DNA of 64,000 nucleotides from Verrucomicrobiota bacterium (GTDB lineage Bacteria; Verrucomicrobiota; Verrucomicrobiia; Opitutales; UBA953), in the NCBI GenBank assembly GCA_015061905.1, contig SUVQ01000009.1, positions 62,001 to 126,000 of the forward strand. Direction: 5' to 3'. This document shows, piece after piece, positions 5,113-62,574 of the stretch. The notes under the pieces are model-generated. The model worked only from the letters and a program-made list of their open reading frames with translations, made no database searches and was not told where the DNA came from. The position numbers and the translations under genes are program-made. How positions within the stretch are numbered: the stretch's first letter is position 1; each line of letters opens with the position of its first letter.

Positions 5113-5311
5113 TACCAAAACCGTTCCCGTCTGTCGATAGCGCGTGAGTTTAAAAGGAAAATTCCTTTTTTTTCGCACGTTCCCGCCCGTTGAAGCGGGG
5201 CGGCGAACGCGTGCGCCCGCAAGATTGCGCGTCCGGTCGTCTTTTGTGCGAAAGTTTTTTGTGTCGGCAGGAATTGTGATTTTCGGCAGAATGCATTCCC
5301 GCTTTTTTTTT

Positions 5312-6310
5312 ATGAAAAAATCTATTTCCGCCATTTTGTTTTTTTTCGCTTGCCTGAGCGTTCCCGCGTTTGCGGCGGGACCCGTTCCCGCCGAGGAGGT
5401 TTTCGATGCGAAAAACGCGGCGATTCTCGGCGTAGTCGAAGGTTTGACGGAATATTTGCCCGTTTCTTCGACCGGGCATTTGATTTTGGCGAATGCCGCA
5501 CTGGAATTGGATTCGGATGAGGCGATTATTGCGCGCGGCGGAGACGGCGTCGTGCGCGAGAAAGACGGCTCGGATTTTACGGTAAAAGAGGCGGCGGACG
5601 CGTATTCGATTATCATTCAGTTCGGCGCGATTATTGCGGTGCTTTTTGCGTATTGGAAACGTTGCACGGGAACGCTTGTCGGCGTGTTTCGGCGCGATCC
5701 CGCGAGTTGGCGTCTCTCGCGCAATCTGATGGTTGCGTTTGTGCCGGCGGCGGGGCTCGGGTTTATTTTTTCGGATAAAATCGAGGAATATTTGTTCAAT
5801 CCGGTAACGGTGGCGGTGGCACTCGTCGTCGGGGGCGTTTTGATGCTTGTTGTCGATAAACGCCAGAAAAAACGCGCGGCGCTCGGCGAAGATGCGGGAA
5901 CGGAAAAGCTTGATTTGCAGGATTTGTCGGTGAAGCAATCGCTGACAATCGGGCTGATGCAGTGCATCGCGCTTTGGCCGGGAATGAGCCGCTCGATGGC
6001 GACGATTGTCGGCGGCTACGTTGCGGGGCTTTCGCCGCGGCGCGCGACGGAATTTTCATTTTTGCTGGGCTTGATTACGCTTTCTGCGGCATCGGTTTAT
6101 AAAACGCTGAAATGCGCGCCGCAGATGCTGGAATCTTTCGGCGCGGAAGTTTCGGCGGTCGGCTTGGCGGTGGCTTTTGTTTCGGCGTTTGCCTCGGTGA
6201 AATGGATGGTGAACTGGATTTCCAAGCACGGGCTTTCGGCGTTTGCGTGGTATCGCTTTGGTTTGGCGGCACTCGTCCTTGTTTGTTGCTTGGGTTTCGA
6301 TATATTGTAA
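5312..6310 (+). CDS. uppP: Undecaprenyl-diphosphatase UppP (BacA family)
   Basis: Integral membrane phosphatase that recycles undecaprenyl pyrophosphate to the lipid carrier used for peptidoglycan and O-antigen; excess gives bacitracin resistance. Both signatures are present: EGLTEYLPVSSTGHLIL near residue 44 (catalytic Glu pair and PVSSTGH) and WPGMSRSMATIVGG near 222. At 332 aa it is longer than E. coli UppP (~273). It begins with a signal-peptide-like segment (MKKSISAILFFFACLS) and carries an extra hydrophilic stretch (RGGDGVVREKDGS) after the first motif. ATG at 5312 was chosen because it opens that hydrophobic segment; ATG at 5291 is also in frame. Confidence 0.95.
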   Translation: MKKSISAILFFFACLSVPAFAAGPVPAEEVFDAKNAAILGVVEGLTEYLPVSSTGHLILANAALELDSDEAIIARGGDGVVREKDGSDFTVKEAADAYSIIIQFGAIIAVLFAYWKRCTGTLVGVFRRDPASWRLSRNLMVAFVPAAGLGFIFSDKIEEYLFNPVTVAVALVVGGVLMLVVDKRQKKRAALGEDAGTEKLDLQDLSVKQSLTIGLMQCIALWPGMSRSMATIVGGYVAGLSPRRATEFSFLLGLITLSAASVYKTLKCAPQMLESFGAEVSAVGLAVAFVSAFASVKWMVNWISKHGLSAFAWYRFGLAALVLVCCLGFDIL

Positions 6311-6364
6311 AACGGATTTTTTAGAAAATTTTACTTCGGGCGGGCTATTTTCTCGCTTGCATAA

Positions 6365-6491
6365 GTCGGGGGAATCGGGAATGCTTGGAGCGGTCGGGTC
6401 CCATACGATAAGTGCCGGCGAACCCCGTCAGATCCGGAAGGAAGCAGCGGCAGTCAGGTTCCTTGTGCGTTGTGGCAAACCCGGCTTTTTT
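6365..6491 (+). ncRNA. ffs: Signal recognition particle RNA (small bacterial type)
   Basis: The universally conserved apical part of SRP RNA is visible: GTCAGATCCGGAAGGAAGCA followed by GCGGCAG, with the GGAA tetraloop and asymmetric loop that bind the Ffh M domain. Ends pair: GTCGGG at 6365-6370 with CCCGGC at 6480-6485. A run of six T follows and should end transcription. Length ~120 nt fits the Alu-less form. It guides Ffh to nascent membrane proteins. It lies alone between uppP and the acyl-CoA synthetase. The exact 5' end is inferred from pairing. Confidence 0.93.
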
Positions 6492-6633
6492 GTGCTTTTT
6501 TCGCGGGAACGCGGGCTTTAACTTTGCGGCGGGCGGCTGAGGTTTTTTTTTCTCGACTAAAAAGAGCAAGGGGCATCTAATTTTCCCTCAGAGGTCGTTG
6601 TGAGAATTTCCTCGCGGGGCACTCTTAATTCTG

Positions 6634-8674: not shown

Positions 8675-9394
8675 ATGAAAAAAAAATTACTTACTGCCGC
8701 AATACTTTCGGCTTCCTGTCTCTTCGCGTCGGCGTATACATTGGAATCTGCTGCCGGATACTGGGGCGAGAATGGAAGTAGCAAAGACGTGACAAAACAG
8801 ACAAACGGAGACAATGGTTTCACTCTCACGGCAACGGGAACGAAGTTTACTTCGCCTACAAGTACGCGCGACGAAGTTTCGTTCTCGTTTACGATTGACT
8901 GCACCAAGCTCGATTTGAACACGGGGACAGACCTTCTTTTATTTCACTTTGACGGGAACGCGAGGTATGATTTCGGAATAGGCTATGATGCCGAAACGGA
9001 TCGTCTTTCTTTTACGTGGGGAAGTAATTATGAGTATGCGAAATTCGGTAACGCTCTGACGAGCGCAGATAAGATCAAAACTTTTACGGTTTCTTTCGGT
9101 GATAATGGGACGAGAGCATGGGATGAGTCCGGAAACTTTTGGTCATCGCATAATCTAAGGGGAAATATCGATAGCGGAGAGATTTCTTCGATTGTCGTTT
9201 CTTCTGCCGGAGCCAAAGCATTGAATAGCTTAGTCGTTTGGGACAAAGATATTGATTATGGATCGGACAATGGTGTTTCAACTGCGGCTATTGCAACACA
9301 GGTGGCACAGTCGATCGTTCCCGAGCCGTCGGCGTTCGGATTGCTTGCGGGGCTGGGTGCTTTGGTGTTTGTTTCGTTTCGCCGCCGCCGCTAA
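8675..9394 (+). CDS. Secreted PEP-CTERM sorting-domain protein
   Basis: Exported 239-aa protein of unknown function. A signal peptide (MKKKLLTAAILSASCLFASA) is followed by a Ser/Thr/Asn/Gly-rich, probably beta-sandwich body, as in many outer-surface proteins. The C-terminus has the PEP-CTERM signal: VPEPSAFGLLAGLGAL, a hydrophobic stretch, then RRRR. In such systems an exosortase recognises PEP and processes the tail; no exosortase is in this window. There is no Shine-Dalgarno sequence; the leader is A-rich. Only three octamer copies occur, one of them in the codons for VPEP. A hairpin-rich repeat starts two bases after the stop, as it does after the large PEP-CTERM gene ending at 58101. Confidence 0.87.
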   Translation: MKKKLLTAAILSASCLFASAYTLESAAGYWGENGSSKDVTKQTNGDNGFTLTATGTKFTSPTSTRDEVSFSFTIDCTKLDLNTGTDLLLFHFDGNARYDFGIGYDAETDRLSFTWGSNYEYAKFGNALTSADKIKTFTVSFGDNGTRAWDESGNFWSSHNLRGNIDSGEISSIVVSSAGAKALNSLVVWDKDIDYGSDNGVSTAAIATQVAQSIVPEPSAFGLLAGLGALVFVSFRRRR

Positions 9395-9580: not shown

Positions 9581-9622
9581 GCGTTCCCGTGAGAGTTTTT
9601 CTCGCGGGACGCTTTTTTTTTT
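9581..9622 (+). terminator. Terminator-like hairpin upstream of tex
   Basis: GCGTTCCCGTGAGAG (9581-9595) pairs with CTCGCGGGACGC (9601-9612), with a short bulge, followed by ten T. One arm is the dispersed octamer; the other is a degenerate copy. It probably ends transcription from the preceding PEP-CTERM gene and repeat. Confidence 0.7.
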
Positions 9623-12070: not shown

Positions 12071-12112
12071 AAAAAAGCGTTCCCGCAAAATTGCACGCGG
12101 GAACGCTTTTTT
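12071..12112. terminator. Bidirectional terminator built from an inverted octamer pair
   Basis: Perfect 16-bp arms AAAAAAGCGTTCCCGC (12071-12086) and GCGGGAACGCTTTTTT (12097-12112), loop of ten bases. It serves convergent tex and coaC. The G+C part of the stem is exactly the dispersed octamer facing its complement. Confidence 0.92.
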
Positions 12113-36119: not shown

Positions 36120-36167
36120 AAAAAGCGTTCCCGTGCAGAAAAATTTACGAAACGGGAACGCTTTTTT
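36120..36167 (+). terminator. recA terminator from an inverted octamer pair
   Basis: AAAAAGCGTTCCCGT (36120-36134) and ACGGGAACGCTTTTT (36152-36166) are perfectly complementary, with a 17-base AT-rich loop and a T-run, 22 bp after the recA stop. Confidence 0.92.
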
Positions 36168-38488: not shown

Positions 38489-38530
38489 GAACGTTCCCGC
38501 CCGGCGAAAATCGCTTCGGCGGGAACGTTC
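38489..38530. terminator. Hairpin from an inverted octamer pair after the PDZ gene
   Basis: GAACGTTCCCGCC (38489-38501) and GGCGGGAACGTTC (38518-38530) are perfectly complementary, 21 bp after the stop codon. The plus-side tail TTCTTTCT is only moderately T-rich; a strong T-run precedes the left arm. Confidence 0.75.
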
Positions 38531-41174: not shown

Positions 41175-41212
41175 CAAAGCGTTCCCGTCCGTAGAATCGA
41201 AAAATTTTTACA

Positions 41213-41263
41213 AAAAAAACGTTCCCGCCTAAAACGGCTTTTGCCGCGCGGGAACGTTTTTTT
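41213..41263. terminator. Bidirectional terminator from an inverted octamer pair after nadB
   Basis: AAAAAAACGTTCCCGC (41213-41228) and GCGGGAACGTTTTTTT (41248-41263) are perfect arms; inside the loop CGGC/GCCG can extend the stem. It serves nadB and the convergent gene at 41306. Another octamer lies just upstream at 41179. Confidence 0.9.
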
Positions 41264-41305: not shown

Positions 41306-42049
41306 TTAGCGATTGGAGAGGCGGCGGCGCAAATTGCGGTTTTGGTTTTCCAAAGTTTCAATGCGCTTTTTCGCTTCTTCGAGCTCGGCGTTAATTTCGT
41401 CGGCGCGAGAATCTGCGGCGGCGGAGCGATCGTTTGCCGTTGCGACTTGCGCTTGGAGGCGTTGTTGCAAATCGGCGATTTCGAGTTTGCGGGCGGCGAG
41501 TTCTTCGTCGAGCGCGTCGCGTTCCTTGGAAAGTTCCAACAATTGTTGGTCTTTTTCTGCGATTTGAGCTTCGAGTGCTTGGCGGTCTTCGTTGCTGCGG
41601 AGGCGGACGACTTCGCCGTTGAGCTCTTCGGTGCGTTTGCGTTCTGCGATAAGCGCATTTTCCAACTCGGCAATCGCCGCTTTGTCCTTGTCGGCGGATT
41701 CCTGAGCGATTTTTGCGGCAGATTCTTTTTCCGCGATTTGTTGCTGTTGCGCGATGTCTTTTTGAGCGGCTTCTTCAAGCGCTTTTTGGCGGGCTAACGA
41801 CTGTTCTTCGGACGCGGCGAGTTGTTTTTCGAGTTCGCGATTTTTTTCGCGAGCCTGCGCAAGATCCGTTTCCGCGATTTTGTTTTTGGCGCGGAGGTCA
41901 AACGTTTCGTCGTTGGCTTTGCGTTGCGCGTCAATTTCCGCCAAGTTCTCGTTTTCCTTCTGCAGGTCGCTGTTTTGGAGGAAAAGATAGGCAGACGTTC
42001 CCGCGAAAACAGCGGCGATGATGAATAATACGATGGATACTTTCTTCAT
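41306..42049 (-). CDS. Membrane-anchored coiled-coil protein
   Basis: 247-aa protein: one N-terminal transmembrane helix (VSIVLFIIAAVFAGTSAYLF) followed by about 220 residues of almost unbroken Glu/Gln/Ala/Lys/Arg-rich coiled coil (AEIDAQRKANDETFDLRAKN, LENALIAERKRTEELNGEVV), ending RNLRRRLSNR. It has no enzyme motif. Such proteins act as periplasmic scaffolds or spacers; function here unknown. It lies downstream of speA on the same strand, separated by a hairpin-rich gap. It has no octamer after codon ~20, unusual for its length. Confidence 0.75.
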   Translation of the reverse strand: MKKVSIVLFIIAAVFAGTSAYLFLQNSDLQKENENLAEIDAQRKANDETFDLRAKNKIAETDLAQAREKNRELEKQLAASEEQSLARQKALEEAAQKDIAQQQQIAEKESAAKIAQESADKDKAAIAELENALIAERKRTEELNGEVVRLRSNEDRQALEAQIAEKDQQLLELSKERDALDEELAARKLEIADLQQRLQAQVATANDRSAAADSRADEINAELEEAKKRIETLENQNRNLRRRLSNR

Positions 42050-45333: not shown

Positions 45334-46728
45334 ATGATTAAAGTTTCTCCCAAATTCGTTCCCGAAATCGATCCCGCGTTCGTTCCCGCCGTGTTGTGGA
45401 ACCGCGAATACCGCAAACTCGCGGCGGCAACCGCCGATTCCGCTCCGCTCGCCATCGGACTGGAACGCCCGGACGGAACCGCTTCCGTTTTCCGCACCGT
45501 TTGCTTGCCGTGCACGCCGGATTTTGCTCCGTTGAACAAAATTTACGTCGAACGCCTCGTAAAATTCCTTCTTTGGGCACGCGGCGGAACGAAAGTTTAT
45601 GTTTCCGGAAAATATGCTCCGTGTATCGCCGAAATGCTCAAAAAATGCTACTGCAAGGGCGGTGAACGCGAATTTGACGTCGGTTTCGTAAAACAACTTT
45701 TCGGCGAAGATCTCGAAATTCTCGCCGTTGACGAAGCCGGACTCCCGAAAGAAGCCGCTTCCCACCTGCCGCTCGGCCGCAATCTCGACGGTTGCCGCAT
45801 CGGCTTCGACCTTGGCGGTTCCGACCGTAAGTGCGCCGCCGTTATCGACGGCAAGGTCGTTTTCTCCGAAGAAGTTAAATGGGATCCGTATTTCCAAGCC
45901 GACCCGGAATATCACTACGAAGGCATCATGCACTCGCTCAAGCTCGCGGCGGCGCACCTTCCGCGCGTCGATGCGATCGGCGGCTCTTCCGCAGGCGACT
46001 ACATCAACAACCGCGTCGGCGTCGCTTCTCTTTTCCGTGGCGTCAAAGATCCGGAACTCTTTGAAAAACGCGTTAAAAATATGTTCATCGAAATCGCCAA
46101 AGAATGGGGCGTGCCGTTTGAAGTTATCAACGACGGCGACGTTACCGCGCTTGCCGGCTCGATGAGCATGAACAAAAACGCCGTTCTCGGTATCGCGATG
46201 GGAACGTCCGTCGCCGCCGGTTACGTCGATCCGGAAGGACACATGACGAACTGGATTTCCGAACTCGCGTTCGTTCCCGTCGATTACCGCGAAAACGGTC
46301 CCGCCGACGAATGGTCGGGCGACCTCGGTTGCGGCGTGCAATATTTCTCGCAACAGGGCACGGGGCGCCTTATTCCGATGGCGGGCATTGAACTGCCGGC
46401 GGAAATGCGCCTCCCGGAAAAGCTCGAAGAGCTCCAAAAGCTCATGAAGGACAACGATCCGCGTGCGCGCAAGGTTTACGAAGCCATCGGGATTTGCTTC
46501 GGCTACACGCTCGCGCACTTTGCGGAATTTTACGCTTACGAAAACCTTCTCATCATGGGACGCGTAACGTCCGGCGAAGGCGGCTCGATTATCATCGACA
46601 AGGCGAACGAAGTCCTCAAGACCGAGTTCCCGGAACTCAAAATCAACCTCGTCGTTCCGGATGAAAAGGACAAGCGCCACGGTCAGGCAATCGCCGCCGC
46701 TTCGCTTCCCGCCATCCCGAAAGCGTAG
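45334..46728 (+). CDS. ROK-family protein (probable sugar kinase)
   Basis: 464-aa protein of the actin-like ATPase fold. An unusual N-terminal ~150 residues precede the ROK core: CRIGFDLGGSDRKCAAVIDG near 153-172 (phosphate-1 loop), SSAGDYINNRVGVASLF, VPFEVINDGDVTALAGSMSM (catalytic Asp in NDGD), and AVLGIAMGTSVAAGYVDPEG. The zinc CxCGxxGC motif of many ROK kinases is not seen. Being next to nagB suggests phosphorylation of an amino sugar, but the N-terminal extension sets it apart from NagK and a non-kinase role is possible. Confidence 0.78.
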   Translation: MIKVSPKFVPEIDPAFVPAVLWNREYRKLAAATADSAPLAIGLERPDGTASVFRTVCLPCTPDFAPLNKIYVERLVKFLLWARGGTKVYVSGKYAPCIAEMLKKCYCKGGEREFDVGFVKQLFGEDLEILAVDEAGLPKEAASHLPLGRNLDGCRIGFDLGGSDRKCAAVIDGKVVFSEEVKWDPYFQADPEYHYEGIMHSLKLAAAHLPRVDAIGGSSAGDYINNRVGVASLFRGVKDPELFEKRVKNMFIEIAKEWGVPFEVINDGDVTALAGSMSMNKNAVLGIAMGTSVAAGYVDPEGHMTNWISELAFVPVDYRENGPADEWSGDLGCGVQYFSQQGTGRLIPMAGIELPAEMRLPEKLEELQKLMKDNDPRARKVYEAIGICFGYTLAHFAEFYAYENLLIMGRVTSGEGGSIIIDKANEVLKTEFPELKINLVVPDEKDKRHGQAIAAASLPAIPKA

Positions 46729-46765: not shown

Positions 46766-46812
46766 AGCGTTCCCGCGAAAAACGGTTTTTGCCGCGCGGG
46801 AACGCTTTTTTG
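46766..46812. terminator. Terminator from an inverted octamer pair after the ROK gene
   Basis: AGCGTTCCCGCG (46766-46777) and CGCGGGAACGCT (46795-46806) pair perfectly, with CGGTTTTTGCCG able to extend inside the loop, then six T. It lies 37 bp after the stop codon. Confidence 0.9.
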
Positions 46813-46863: not shown

Positions 46864-47703
46864 ATGGACAAAACTCAAAACAAAGTCATCTTTTTTCGGG
46901 AAAAATCCATTCGCCGTCTTTGGTATGAAAACGAATGGTATTTTTCGGTAATTGACGTTGTCGGTGCGTTGACCGATAGCGTGAACCCGCGCGATTATTG
47001 GTTTAAAATGAAAAAGCGGGTTCATGCAGAGGACGGATTTGAGTTGTCGACAATTTGTCGACAACTCAAATTACCGGCACCGGACGGAAAGTCATATGTA
47101 ACCGACTGCGCTTCCGTGAAAGGAATTTTCCGTATCATTCAAGCAATTCCGTCGCCCAAAGCCGAACCGTTTAAACAATGGTTGGCACAAGTCGGCTATG
47201 AACGTGTTTGCGAAATTGAAAATCCGGAGTTGGCGCAACAACGCATGAAAGAACTCTACGAGCAAAAGGGGTATCCTAAAGATTGGATTGATAAGCGCTT
47301 GCGCGGGATCGCCGTTCGGCAAAATCTGACGGACGAATGGAAAGAGCGCGGAATTTTCGCTGAGAAAGATTTTGCGATTCTTACTGCAGAAATTTCCAAG
47401 GCAACATTCGGGATGACTCCCTCTGAATATAAAAAACACAAAGGGCTGGCCAATCCCGCTCACAATCTCCGCGACCACATGACGGATTTAGAGCTGATTT
47501 TTACAATGCTCGGAGAAAAAGTTACAACGGAACTTTCTCGGCAGGAAAAGCCGACCGAAATGCCGGAACACAAAGCGGTTGCGCGGCGCGGCGGACGTGT
47601 TGCGGGAACAGCGCGGAAGGAAACGGAAAAGGAGCTCGGACGAAGCATTATTTCTTCTTCAAACTATTTGGATACTGACGAATTCCCGAAAAAACTTTCG
47701 TAG
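46864..47703 (+). CDS. BRO/DinD-like DNA-damage-inducible family protein
   Basis: 279-aa protein. The N-terminal BRO-type domain (IRRLWYENEWYFSVIDVVGA, LTDSVNPRDYWFKMKKRV) is followed by the DinD-type region (AFKQWL/AQVGYERVCEIENPEL, GYPKDWIDKRLRGIAVRQNL, TAEISKATFGMTPSEYKKHK). Family members are often phage-linked antirepressors or SOS genes. ATG at 46864 starts the conserved part; ATG at 46831 preceded by AGAAGAAGAA is an alternative. There is no octamer within the gene and its codon use looks more A/T-rich than its neighbours, which suggests fairly recent acquisition. Confidence 0.85.
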   Translation: MDKTQNKVIFFREKSIRRLWYENEWYFSVIDVVGALTDSVNPRDYWFKMKKRVHAEDGFELSTICRQLKLPAPDGKSYVTDCASVKGIFRIIQAIPSPKAEPFKQWLAQVGYERVCEIENPELAQQRMKELYEQKGYPKDWIDKRLRGIAVRQNLTDEWKERGIFAEKDFAILTAEISKATFGMTPSEYKKHKGLANPAHNLRDHMTDLELIFTMLGEKVTTELSRQEKPTEMPEHKAVARRGGRVAGTARKETEKELGRSIISSSNYLDTDEFPKKLS

Positions 47704-47873
47704 AATTTCTCTCAGGTTTCAACGCGGATTTACGCTGAAGCGTCGACAGTTTGTTAACGCTTCAAATTGTCGGAAACGGGTATGCTCGGGAACGCTTTTT
47801 TTGCGCCATTTTCTCTGCCCGAACTCGAAAAACACTTTGCTACGGGAAGGTTTTTTTAGGAAAATAAAACCTG

Positions 47874-48860
47874 ATGACCAAGCCCCCGTTTACAGTCTCC
47901 GCAAAAGCCGTCAATCTCGTCGCCGAAATCTCCGGGCTGATTGAGCGCTACGCCATTCGCTTGGAGCAGGCTGACGCGCTGCTTCTGCGCAAAGTTAATC
48001 GTGTGAAGACGATTTACGGTTCTTTGGCAATTGAGGGGAATACGCTTACCGAAAGTCAAGTCAGCGATATTTTGGACGGGAAACGCGTTGTCGCACCGAT
48101 TCGTCAGATTCGGGAAGTTAAAAATGCAATAAAAACCTATGAACTTTATCCGCAGCTGAATCCTTTTTCCGTTCCCGATTTGCTGAAGGCTCACGGCGTG
48201 ATGATGGAAGCTTTGGCGGACGATGCGGGAAGTTTTCGTCGCGGGAACGTCGGCGTTTTCGCCGGAAAAGAAATTGTGCATATCGCTCCGCCTGCAGATC
48301 GCGTTCCCGGGCTTATCGAGGATTTGATGCTCTGGACAAAATCGGCAGAAGATCATTGGCTGATCCGCAGTTGCGTTTTTCATTACGAATTTGAATTTAT
48401 CCACCCGTTCAGCGACGGGAACGGTCGCATGGGGCGTTTGTGGCAATCGCTGATTCTCGGTCAACTGCATCCGCTGTTCGAACATTTGCCGATTGAAAAC
48501 ATGGTTTACGCCAACCAGCAGGCTTATTACGACGCAATTAACACAAGCACGGATCAGGGCGAGTGCGGCACTTTCATCGATTTCATGCTTCAGGAAATCT
48601 TTGATGCGTTGAGCCTTCGTTCGCAGACATTCCGCCCCGATGTCGGAGCAAATGTCGGAGTAAATGTCGGTGTAAACGAGCAAAAAATTTTAACTCGCCT
48701 CAACGAGGACAGACACATCACGGCAAAGCAACTTGCTGTATTTTTGTCTATAACGCCGCGCCAAGTGGAACGCATTTTGAAAAAGCTAAAAGAAAAAGAG
48801 CTGATTCGGCGTGTCGGTTCCGACAAATCCGGGTATTGGGAAATTGTGAAGCGACCGTAG
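47874..48860 (+). CDS. Fic-domain protein with C-terminal winged helix
   Basis: 328-aa Fic AMP-transferase. The inhibitory helix motif SLAIEGN lies near residue 51, before the Fic core, as in class II Fic proteins that keep themselves inactive. The active-site loop HPFSDGNGRMGR (near 177-188) is intact, so it should transfer AMP to a target protein. Near residues 255-268 is the repeat VGANVGVNVGVN, then a winged-helix domain (RHITAKQLAVFLSITPRQVE). The target is unknown. Four octamers lie in the gene, unlike the neighbouring DinD-like gene. Confidence 0.92.
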   Translation: MTKPPFTVSAKAVNLVAEISGLIERYAIRLEQADALLLRKVNRVKTIYGSLAIEGNTLTESQVSDILDGKRVVAPIRQIREVKNAIKTYELYPQLNPFSVPDLLKAHGVMMEALADDAGSFRRGNVGVFAGKEIVHIAPPADRVPGLIEDLMLWTKSAEDHWLIRSCVFHYEFEFIHPFSDGNGRMGRLWQSLILGQLHPLFEHLPIENMVYANQQAYYDAINTSTDQGECGTFIDFMLQEIFDALSLRSQTFRPDVGANVGVNVGVNEQKILTRLNEDRHITAKQLAVFLSITPRQVERILKKLKEKELIRRVGSDKSGYWEIVKRP

Positions 48861-48878
48861 CGTTCCCGCGCGGGAACG
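48861..48878. repeat. Perfect 18-bp palindrome of two fused octamers
   Basis: CGTTCCCGCGCGGGAACG directly after the Fic stop codon (TAG at 48858-48860). It has no loop and no T-run, so it is not an ordinary terminator. Confidence 0.9.
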
Positions 48879-49295: not shown

Positions 49296-51038
49296 TCAGT
49301 AGGCGAAAATCAGAAGAAAAACGCAGAGCGTAAGCGGCGGGAACGTGAAGCGCAACCACGGGTTTTCCCGAAATTTCGGGATCGTTTCGCCGAAGAAAAA
49401 TGTCGCAAAAACAATCAGGCTACCGGCGATGCCGAAGCTTTTATGCGGAAAGGAGAGCTCTGCGATTCCGGGCAACGCGGAAAGCCAAGCCGTGCCGAAA
49501 TCCAGCAAAAGAAGCGGAATCAGGCTCAGCAGAAAGAAAAATTTTCCGAGCGCGATTCCCGCAAGCGGCAGGCAGGCGGTTAAAAGCGCGAAGGCACCTG
49601 TCCACGCCGCGAGCGAAACCGCCGGAATCAAAATCACGTTTGCCGCGAGAGAAATGAAGGAACACACGCCGAATTCCGCAATGACAATCGGCGTTCCCGC
49701 GAGAAATGCCGCGCCTGAAATACAAAATCCGGAAACGGCAGCGTGCTGTATTTTGAACAATATTTTTTGATGAAACCGAAGCGCTCCGAGCGGAATTTTG
49801 CGACGGGAATCCAGGGCGTTTTCAAAAAAATCCGCTAACGGAATTCCGTAGAGCAAAATGGCGGCGACGACCAAATACGAAAGGCGAAAGCCGGTATTTC
49901 CCAGAACCGTCGGCTCAAGCATCAACGCAAAAAACGCCGAAAAAAGCAGCCCGTGAAAAGCCATGCGCCCGCGCCCGAAAAGCGTTCCCGCGAACAAAAA
50001 CACGAGCATCGTCCACGCGCGCACGGCGGAGGGCGGAGCACCGACGATTTGCACATAAAACCAAAGCGAGCCGAGCATCAACGTCCACGCCAAGCCGCGC
50101 GGCATCTTCAGCGCGTGAAGCAGCGCAAGCATTCCTGCGGCGAGAACGGAAACATGAAGCCCGCTTACGGCGAAAATGTGCATCGTTCCCGTGAGCAGGA
50201 AATTTTCTTTCTGTTCGGGTAAGAGCAAATTGCGTTCGCCGAGCAGCATCGCGCCGAGAATGCGTCCGGCGCGCTCCCGCCGGGGACTTTCGTCCGAAAT
50301 TTGCTCCAGAGCGGTTTTCAGTTTTTTGTTTATTCGGGCGCAGAAGCGCAGGAAAAAATTGCCGTCGCGAGCACGGATTTCCGCGTTTTCCACGCGCGTG
50401 AGCATTGCGCTGACGCGTTCCCGTTTTAAGTAGGAGAAAAAACCTTCGCTACCCGAGAACGCTTCCGGAGAAAGTCCGCTCAACACGCCGCTTGCGCAGA
50501 TTTTTTCTCCCGGAGCCGGAGCATTTTCCGGGAAAAGTTTTTTAGGAACGGAAAACCAAATACGCGTTCCCGCGAGCGCGCCGAGCCCGTCTCCGGAAAT
50601 TTTTTCGATACGCGCCAATCCGTTAAAATTTTTTTCGGAGGCGGAAAACATACGCTCCGTGTAAAATTCAACTTCGGCTTCGCGCGGGGATTTTTTTGAC
50701 CAATCTTCAAGCGGCGGCGCATGAAAATTCCACCACGCGCAAAACAGAAAAAAAGCGGCGATCGGGAAACAGATTTTCCAAACAAGGCGGAATTTGGAAT
50801 TTACCTCTTCCGACTTCGGGGAAAGCAATTCAAGCCCGCTTGCAAGGCTCGCGACAAAAAGAAAAACCAGTCCGGCGATAAACCGGCGAAATTCCGGAAT
50901 TTCGGAAAACCAAGGCGCGTTTTCACAAAATGCAAAGGCGCAAATTTGCGGAAGCAACAGCCAAAGTAGCGGGAACGATGAAGGAAATCGCGCCGGAGCT
51001 TGCGGCGGTTTCGGGTCGTCGTTCCCGTAGTGCTCCAT
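49296..51038 (-). CDS. comEC: ComEC/Rec2-family DNA internalisation channel
   Basis: Inner-membrane channel that carries single-stranded transforming DNA into the cytoplasm. From ATG at 51038 the product is 580 aa with many hydrophobic segments. An N-terminal DUF4131-like part is followed by an OB-like region and the Competence domain, whose hallmark GTMHIFAVSGLHVSVLAAGM lies near residue 305; SAVRAWTMLVFLFAG and LGNTGFRLSYLVVAAILLYG follow. It ends without the metallo-beta-lactamase domain many ComEC proteins carry, as in shorter family members. It starts two bases after the cycloligase stop, so translation is coupled. This is the only competence gene seen here. Confidence 0.9.
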   Translation of the reverse strand: MEHYGNDDPKPPQAPARFPSSFPLLWLLLPQICAFAFCENAPWFSEIPEFRRFIAGLVFLFVASLASGLELLSPKSEEVNSKFRLVWKICFPIAAFFLFCAWWNFHAPPLEDWSKKSPREAEVEFYTERMFSASEKNFNGLARIEKISGDGLGALAGTRIWFSVPKKLFPENAPAPGEKICASGVLSGLSPEAFSGSEGFFSYLKRERVSAMLTRVENAEIRARDGNFFLRFCARINKKLKTALEQISDESPRRERAGRILGAMLLGERNLLLPEQKENFLLTGTMHIFAVSGLHVSVLAAGMLALLHALKMPRGLAWTLMLGSLWFYVQIVGAPPSAVRAWTMLVFLFAGTLFGRGRMAFHGLLFSAFFALMLEPTVLGNTGFRLSYLVVAAILLYGIPLADFFENALDSRRKIPLGALRFHQKILFKIQHAAVSGFCISGAAFLAGTPIVIAEFGVCSFISLAANVILIPAVSLAAWTGAFALLTACLPLAGIALGKFFFLLSLIPLLLLDFGTAWLSALPGIAELSFPHKSFGIAGSLIVFATFFFGETIPKFRENPWLRFTFPPLTLCVFLLIFAY

Positions 51039-51040
51039 CG

Positions 51041-51685
51041 TCAGGAACCGTTGTTTACGCGGAAAACGCCGCGCTTGGGAGTAACGATAAATTGCACGGG
51101 AACGTCTTCCTGCGAGGCGCAGGAAATTTCCGGAAGCACCTGGCAATCGTAGGCGAGCCCGAGTGTCGGGATGGATTCGGGAAGCCCGCTGAGAAAGCGG
51201 TCGTAGTAGCCTTTTCCGTAGCCGACACGGTTCCCGCGCTCATCAAAAACGACGCCGGGAATCAGGCACGCGCCTGCGGCGGCGGGATCGACTTCTTCGC
51301 AGCTGTCCACCGGTTCGAGCACGCCGAAGGTGCCGCGGTTCAAATCGTCCGTCAGGCTTTTGATTTTGAAAAAACGAATTACGTTCCCGAAAACTTTCGG
51401 AACGATGACGGTTTTTCCGCTTTCCATCGCGCGCAGAATAATTCCCGGAGTCGGCATTTCGCTACGCACGGAAACGTAGCAACAAACACAATCCGCGTCG
51501 CGAAACGGCGTCCACGAGCGCACGTGTTCCCGCACCGCGAGCGCGGATGAGAGCACTTCGGAGTAGGGAATCGCGTCGCGCAGGGGAAGAATCCGGTTGC
51601 GCAACTGCTTTTTTGTTTGCGGCGAAGCGTCTCCGCCGACGGCTTCCGGATGAATGATTTCGCGATGAATCGGGCAAAAATTCAT
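51041..51685 (-). CDS. 5-formyltetrahydrofolate cyclo-ligase
   Basis: Converts 5-formyl-THF to 5,10-methenyl-THF with ATP. The 214-aa protein has KKQLRNRILPLRDAIPYSE at the start, CCYVSVRSEMPTPGIILRAM, and the ATP-binding signature VFDERGNRVGYGKGYYDRFL near the C-terminus. The first ~25 residues (NFCPIHREIIHPEAV) are extra relative to the family. It lies directly upstream of comEC with two bases between them, and downstream of the thioesterase. Confidence 0.93.
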   Translation of the reverse strand: MNFCPIHREIIHPEAVGGDASPQTKKQLRNRILPLRDAIPYSEVLSSALAVREHVRSWTPFRDADCVCCYVSVRSEMPTPGIILRAMESGKTVIVPKVFGNVIRFFKIKSLTDDLNRGTFGVLEPVDSCEEVDPAAAGACLIPGVVFDERGNRVGYGKGYYDRFLSGLPESIPTLGLAYDCQVLPEISCASQEDVPVQFIVTPKRGVFRVNNGS

Positions 51686-58375: not shown

Positions 58376-58410
58376 GCGTTCCCGTCGGTTTCGGCGGGAA
58401 CGCTTTTTCG
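58376..58410 (+). terminator. Hairpin from an inverted octamer pair upstream of glnS
   Basis: GCGTTCCCGTC (58376-58386) and GGCGGGAACGC (58393-58403) pair with one G-T, short loop, then five T. It lies 67 bp before the glnS start codon and 65 bp after repeat copy 3, so it probably ends the upstream transcript. Confidence 0.75.
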
Positions 58411-62527: not shown

Positions 62528-62574
62528 AAAGCGTTCCCGCGAATCGACATCGGTTTCGCGGGAACGCTTTTTTT
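62528..62574 (+). terminator. Terminator from an inverted octamer pair after the DUF481 gene
   Basis: AAAGCGTTCCCGCGA (62528-62542) and TCGCGGGAACGCTTT (62556-62570) are perfectly complementary, followed by TTTT, 69 bp after the stop codon. Confidence 0.92.

Follow-up and report, generated by a model that had tools for sequence, protein, structure and literature searches.

Inverted pairs of an abundant octamer, a possible DNA uptake word, as probable transcription terminators in an uncultured Opitutales genus

Octamer hairpins and their neighbors in the window

The window is a 64 kb stretch (contig C15, 62001-126000) of the draft genome of an uncultured member of the Opitutales (G000). The genome comprises 17 contigs and 2.08 Mb, and its RecA has named relatives in Opitutales/Opitutia (Verrucomicrobiota). 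The window holds 233 copies of the octamer CGGGAACG, and at several places two copies stand inverted to each other close to a gene (Table 1). Seven such hairpins had been listed in the initial annotation, and all seven have exact CGTTCCCG...CGGGAACG arms around loops of 10-21 nt. The T-run said to follow each stem is present at six of the seven, as five to seven T's on the + strand, and the tract after the PDZ hairpin is broken (TTCTTC). The variant reported at 9581-9622 is real; its right arm lacks one A (GGGACG). We also found a pair that was not in the earlier list, CGTTCCCGCGCGGGAACG. The predicted RNA folds of all eight window hairpins have energies between -23.4 and -32.7 kcal/mol (z -4.4 to -7.3), and no shuffled sequence was equally stable.

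Table 1. Octamer elements of the window and the competence-domain gene. Coordinates count from the first letter of the window.
Feature	Position	Arms and gap	Strand	Context and values
Variant hairpin	9581..9622		+	after PEP-CTERM gene (stop 9394), before tex; -23.4 kcal/mol, z -7.1
tex/coaC hairpin	12071..12112	arms 12078-12105, 12-nt gap	.	-25.8 kcal/mol, z -5.6
recA hairpin	36120..36167	arms 36126-36160, 19-nt gap	+	after recA, before ECF sigma factor; z -7.3
PDZ hairpin	38489..38530	arms 38492-38527, 20-nt gap	+	after PDZ-domain gene; -32.7 kcal/mol
Single octamer	41180..41187		-	just past nadB-like stop; absent from aligned G007 sequence
nadB hairpin	41213..41263	arms 41220-41256, 21-nt gap	.	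after nadB-like gene (stop 41174)
'ROK' hairpin	46766..46812	arms 46768-46804, 21-nt gap	+	after 464-aa ORF 45334-46728, before Bro-N gene
Additional pair	48861..48878	2-nt gap	.	directly after Fic gene; no T run
ComEC/Competence-domain gene	49296..51146		-	PF03772, E 6e-41
glnS hairpin	58376..58410	arms 58377-58402, 10-nt gap	+	75 nt before glnS
DUF481 hairpin	62528..62574	arms 62532-62566, 19-nt gap	+	after DUF481 gene, before ligA; z -7.0

The tex/coaC hairpin lies between the convergent tex gene (stop 12047) and a coaC-like flavoprotein gene (stop 12121), and since an A run and a T run flank it on its two sides, it is likely a bidirectional terminator. The nadB-like gene is likewise convergent, with a gene at 41306-42049 (-); the hairpin between them has a loop of the kind we call class B, with a nested CGGCAAAAGCCG hairpin, and its arms are kept in the related genome G007. 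The single octamer beside it has no G007 counterpart, so single copies turn over where a neighboring pair is kept. The arms of the PDZ hairpin are also kept in G007, and different octamer hairpins stand at this site in G004 and G005. A 944-aa PATR-repeat gene ends about 275 nt ahead of the glnS hairpin, which may therefore be a leader element of glnS or else terminate the PATR-repeat gene from a distance. The gene upstream of the 46766 hairpin had been called a ROK gene, a name that the ORF does not bear out, having no Pfam match; the hairpin itself has a class-B-like loop and a purine-rich AGCTTAAAG-type leader repeat. Behind it, at 46864-48860, a Bro-N gene and then a Fic gene stand between this ORF and ComEC, a region that could be a mobile or toxin-antitoxin-like insertion. 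A search of the window against Rfam found only the bacterial small SRP RNA (RF00169) at 6392-6489 (+).

Oriented pairs as probable terminators

The genome was analyzed contig by contig with genes defined by a simple home-made codon-usage caller (1,501 genes, 83% of bases), so the gene-related figures are approximate. The octamer is a short non-palindromic word (CGGGAACG, reverse complement CGTTCCCG) that is very frequent on both strands, with 6,550 copies in 2.08 Mb (3.15/kb; 3,233 forward, 3,317 reverse), or about 77-fold more than the 85 copies of the reversed-pattern control. Its density is 3.07/kb in genes and 3.2-4.4/kb in intergenic regions, and ∼81% of the copies fall inside predicted genes. 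The copies are spaced almost at random, with a long tail (mean 317 bp, CV 1.18). Chi-type recombination sites would show a strong strand bias along replication; for the octamer, the overall strand counts are equal, and the strand correlates moderately with GC skew (r 0.43), possibly via gene orientation. Across the copies in the genome, the flanks carry weak information at two positions, G at -1 (60%) and C at +1 (53%), and no extended flank beyond them. A literature search with the octamer string gave no paper on such a genomic word among the matches listed, as judged by title.

A pair was counted where CGTTCCCG-loop-CGGGAACG occurs in intergenic DNA with a gap of 0-30 nt, which gives 164 pairs in the whole genome. 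Two permutation nulls, in which octamer positions and orientations were shuffled, yield 28.0 ± 5.1 and 32.8 ± 5.5 pairs, with a maximum of 49 in 300 runs. Intergenic pairs of the opposite orientation number 30 and same-strand pairs 34, and inside genes the two inverted orders are equal (71 vs 79). As the in-gene orders are equal and the other intergenic orders sit at chance, the excess is limited to one intergenic orientation, and the claim that inverted pairs exceed the single-copy expectation holds (164 vs 33 ± 5.5).

The oriented pairs have the placement and the asymmetry of terminators. Within 60 bp of a gene 3′ end lie 79% of the 164, compared with 17% of random intergenic positions, and a T or A run of at least five (T-rich downstream, A-rich upstream) accompanies 81% of the oriented intergenic pairs but only 18% of genic pairs, 32% of pairs in the opposite order, and 14% of single octamers. 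Pair density is 1.12/kb in tail-to-tail spacers, 0.37-0.52 in co-directional ones, and 0.21 in head-to-head ones. In co-directional spacers, the T count is 7.60 on the sense-downstream side vs 5.35 on the other (p 1.4e-8), whereas in convergent spacers it is balanced (7.25/7.52). The stem extends outward past the arms by 3.9 bp in intergenic pairs vs 0.7 bp in genic pairs. A home-made terminator scan with a high-score cut predicts 299 strong terminators, 148 of which are octamer pairs and 41 more of which contain one octamer (189/299 with at least one); the 49% share is approximate because the scan, with no score cut applied, also scored 215 of 1,262 intragenic control stretches (17%).

We conclude that the inverted octamer pairs are very probably intrinsic (Rho-independent) terminators, made of a word whose abundance has another cause; that they terminate transcription in vivo we infer from their placement, their arrangement, and the direction of their T runs. 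The RNA copy would fold with the two octamers as the stem, usually with A-U pairs outside and a few pairs inside, and with U's downstream, and between convergent genes one such element could stop transcription from both sides. Selection would draw on existing octamer copies wherever a terminator is required.

Two other accounts of the pairs were weighed against termination. If they were a mere by-product of high octamer density, the 3.5 octamers/kb of intergenic DNA would give some 28-33 such pairs by chance, and the genic and forward-reverse pairs do sit at chance level, but the oriented intergenic pairs are about fivefold over both nulls while the opposite orientation stays at 30, and the oriented:opposite ratio climbs to 75:7 in the octamer-poor genome G001. 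Chance pairing is rejected by the permutation and orientation controls, and we give it next to no weight. The stems are also long and stable enough that they might protect mRNA 3′ ends, and processed 3′ ends can resemble terminators; alternatively, they might serve as DNA-level sites such as cruciforms or paired receptor sites. A DNA-level site, however, needs neither a T run nor a direction, and the runs found in 81% of pairs are biased to the sense-downstream side, while 3′ protection is compatible with termination rather than opposed to it. We consider an account of this kind, in place of termination, quite improbable.

Copied cassettes and turnover across the genus

The initial annotation held that the loops differ and that the hairpins are not copies of one repeat. 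This is right for most pairs, since ∼125 of the 170 non-genic pairs are singletons in a flank comparison, and wrong for the 43 of 170 that have homologous flanks; part of the pair excess comes from copied cassettes. One copied family is a PEP-CTERM 3′-end cassette, which runs from an RRRRK stop through TATATTAATTCATA and the hairpin to CGCGCGAAGCCGC. The proteins encoded ahead of it end in ...VPEPSAFGMLAGLGALALVASRRRRK, and among 48 genes with a basic run at the end, 19 have an octamer hairpin behind them. Both in the window (8675-9394) and genome-wide, PEP-CTERM genes whose C-termini are nearly identical carry this repeated 3′ cassette with its octamer hairpin. The second copied family consists of AGCTTAAAG-type leader repeats, the 46768 hairpin included. 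We note that a GC-rich AAGCCGCnAAG-repeat tail (134 matches), intergenic, stands after many copied-cassette hairpins (e.g., C14:53460 and C10:59809).

A common loop is a further sign of kinship. About 13 of the 16 intergenic CGGC(A/G)AAAG(C/T)CG sites lie inside octamer hairpins, as a nested loop with the octamer on both sides; the nadB hairpin is a member, the 'ROK' loop a close relative, and the PDZ loop possibly one. These class-B loops occur in the own genome and once in G007, and they were not seen in the examined stretches of other species, though octamer pairs occur there. Given the shared flanks and the shared loop class, some terminators have probably spread by copying.

Six of the eight genus members hold 5,192-6,550 octamer copies, G001 holds 1,362, and G006 holds 546; density across the species ranges from 0.3 to 3.9 copies/kb. 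In 49 genomes of other genera the octamer is at or near background, with none strongly enriched. A look at 68 kb of G008 and at the RecA loci of named relatives revealed no comparable word. The octamer is confined to one genus. At the recA 3′ site, octamer hairpins with different loops are found in G000, G007, G001, G002, and G003, and no octamer hairpin is found in G004, G005, and G006; the outgroups G008, G009, and G011 have hairpins with unrelated stems. At the tex 3′ site, G000 and G007 have an octamer hairpin, and G001 and G009 have an unrelated one.

In aligned DNA, genic octamers are kept more often than control 8-mers in G007 (0.83/0.56), G004 (0.65/0.35), and G005 (0.66/0.27), and not above control in G001 (0.12 vs 0.19). 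Within genes, the word is maintained through point substitutions, most of them synonymous. In Tex and RecA trees, G001 falls among the octamer-rich species, its exact position being modestly supported, and several tex gene sites that carry the octamer in G002 and its sister species are near-misses in G001, often synonymous. The oriented:opposite pair ratio is 1.9-3.0 in octamer-rich species, with the 75:7 of G001 and 15:1 in G006 far from that range. The octamer seems lost in the nested species G001, while its pairs survive far better than expected, a persistence that is read from whole-genome counts; the two intergenic arms scored in alignments were both kept. On the simplest reading, the process that maintains the word stopped in G001, and the pairs serving as terminators persist. 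A search of ∼149 kb of G001 for a new dialect gave only weak alternatives (TTCCCGCA, 78 vs 19 expected), so there is no clear replacement word. In octamer-poor G006, we observed clustered G-rich repeats, GGGTTGGTGGTG, many near contig ends.

A candidate uptake word and its known counterparts

Codon usage does not create the word. Where Val-Pro codons stand in the C_G context that completes the octamer, GTTCCC is used in 94% of cases vs 16% elsewhere, and Gly-Asn codons in that context are GGGAAC in 80% vs 14% elsewhere. This test rules out codon bias as the cause, in agreement with the initial annotation, which had set the octamer apart from generic codon-bias motifs. The genome encodes components of DNA uptake, namely ComEC, DprA, PilB/PilT-type ATPases, a cluster with a pilus-type secretin, and seven proteins resembling pilins. 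Relatives that do not carry the octamer have ComEC, DprA, and pilus genes as well. Among the genes in the longest stretches devoid of octamers are type I restriction-modification, SbcCD-like, Cas12a, and glycosyltransferase-like genes. One of ∼16 kb (C14:118678-135105) is almost octamer-free, carries SbcCD-like and type I restriction-modification genes, and is probably acquired DNA; another, largely octamer-free, contains the Cas12a gene (C9:25716-29606, PADLOC E 0). Octamer density also falls in low-GC genes, which is partly expected because the octamer is GC-rich.

As a candidate receptor we considered a genus-restricted 137-aa pilin (C16:65858-66271 (+)), which has no convincing ortholog outside the genus and whose identity within it ranges from 99% to 48%. 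In G001 this pilin is as divergent as in the most distant members, though Tex is 96% identical. A ComP-like role in which the pilin tracks the octamer was rejected: the divergent type occurs in octamer-poor G001 and G006 and also in octamer-rich G003, and so pilin type is not linked to octamer density. Species rich in the octamer have one secretin less. Octamer-poor G001 carries a type II secretion cluster with a GspD-type secretin (C36:54000-68000), and G006 probably has one too, judged by secretin and pilin matches. The secretin missing from the octamer-rich species is that of the type II secretion cluster and the pilus-type secretin is kept, so its absence cannot be equated with loss of the uptake pore.

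We propose that the octamer is kept genome-wide, mostly in genes, by a process that would target the word as DNA, most probably a bias in the uptake of self-DNA through the type IV pilus/ComEC system, with the octamer as a DUS/USS-like word. That uptake maintains the word is a proposal toward which we lean slightly. The reading we favor is that a third lineage has a word resembling an uptake sequence and has co-opted it for termination. In the fuller account, DNA uptake sequences would have arisen a third time, independently, in Verrucomicrobiota: an Opitutales genus would mark its genome with CGGGAACG at 3-4/kb, import self-DNA by means of it, and use inverted pairs as about half of its strong terminators, while nested G001 would have lost the drive, so that the mark erodes in genes and the terminators persist; as a whole, we regard this account as evenly poised between right and wrong.

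Two rival origins bear on the word and on its pairs. The octamer might be a HIP1-like word, linked to methylation or repair rather than uptake and likewise recruited into terminators. Its density matches that of a very dense HIP1 genome, with 7,402 sites in S. elongatus (PMC3219970), and exceeds that of DUS and USS, and HIP words also vary strongly between relatives (PMC4390886). Because the octamer is non-palindromic, unlike HIPs, because the habit of inverted-pair terminators is reported for uptake words, and because competence genes are present, we hold this origin to be possible but unlikely. Alternatively, the hairpins might be copies of a dispersed repeat element that contains the octamer, instead of independent recruitments. 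The 43 of 170 pairs with shared flanks (the PEP-CTERM 3′-end cassette and the AGCTTAAAG leader) would fit this, as would the ∼13 intergenic hairpins with a common nested loop, nadB among them and 'ROK' close. The ∼125 singletons among the 170 pairs speak against it, as do the recA-site loops that differ between species, the class-B loops that are found in the own genome and once in G007 yet are absent from other species' examined stretches, and the single octamers in genes that arise by point substitution without insertion. As a general explanation of the hairpins, a dispersed repeat is improbable.

Until now, descriptions of terminators built from word pairs have been limited to the DNA-uptake words found in relatives of Neisseria and Haemophilus. 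The occurrence of this arrangement around a denser and unrelated word in a distant phylum suggests that terminators tend to arise from any word under strong drive, an idea that the species of this genus, spanning 0.3-3.9 copies/kb, offer the means to test. It also provides a concrete hint that natural transformation, with a preference for self-DNA, may take place in these uncultured bacteria.

In Neisseriaceae and Pasteurellaceae, terminators made from inverted uptake sequences are an established finding (PMC1852404, PMC3630211, PMC2397512, PMC13020248), and a 2026 terminator survey over thousands of genomes names uptake-word terminators for these two proteobacterial families only (PMC13020248). 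The initial annotation took the habit shared with Neisseria DUS and Haemophilus USS as diagnostic. The habit itself is documented (PMC1852404, PMC3630211, PMC13020248), but "diagnostic" is too strong because stems could be made out of any octamer that is abundant and tolerated; the arrangement resembles DUS/USS but does not prove DNA uptake. Since the oriented inverted pairs are used in the same way, the octamer arrangement would work like DUS/USS terminators. Ordinary intrinsic terminators share with the pairs a GC-rich stem, a short loop (some of UUCG or GNRA type), a U tract, and a position soon after stop codons; the difference is that here roughly half of the strong terminators are built on the same 8-bp core.

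The Neisseria DUS (GCCGTCTGAA) is likewise an abundant non-palindromic word with close inverted pairs after genes, mainly convergent ones, in one preferred orientation. It occurs in ∼55% of strong terminators (PMC1852404), and the octamer occurs in 189/299. The DUS is kept in core sequence and rare in acquired DNA (PMC2397512); the octamer is kept above control in three relatives, and its deserts hold restriction-modification and Cas12a genes that may have been acquired. Sequence and phylum are unrelated, and the octamer is denser, at 3.15/kb vs about one DUS per 1,150 nt in meningococci (PMC2397512). Other differences are that ∼81% of octamer copies lie in predicted genes and that the counterpart of ComP here is a candidate pilin only.

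The Pasteurellaceae USS (AAGTGCGGT) also has many copies within genes. It is an abundant word used in 17-29% of terminators (PMC1852404); the octamer is denser, is used more strongly in terminators, and has only the weak G(-1) and C(+1) in place of the AT-rich extended flank of the USS. Cyanobacterial HIP1 (GCGATCGC) is, like the word described here, an octamer of comparable extreme density that varies strongly between related genomes (PMC4390886, PMC3219970), but it is a palindrome tied to methyltransferases, whereas the Opitutales octamer is non-palindromic and has an oriented terminator arrangement. In density, the octamer is several times above typical uptake words and closer to HIP1; in its oriented inverted pairs, it resembles the DUS and USS.
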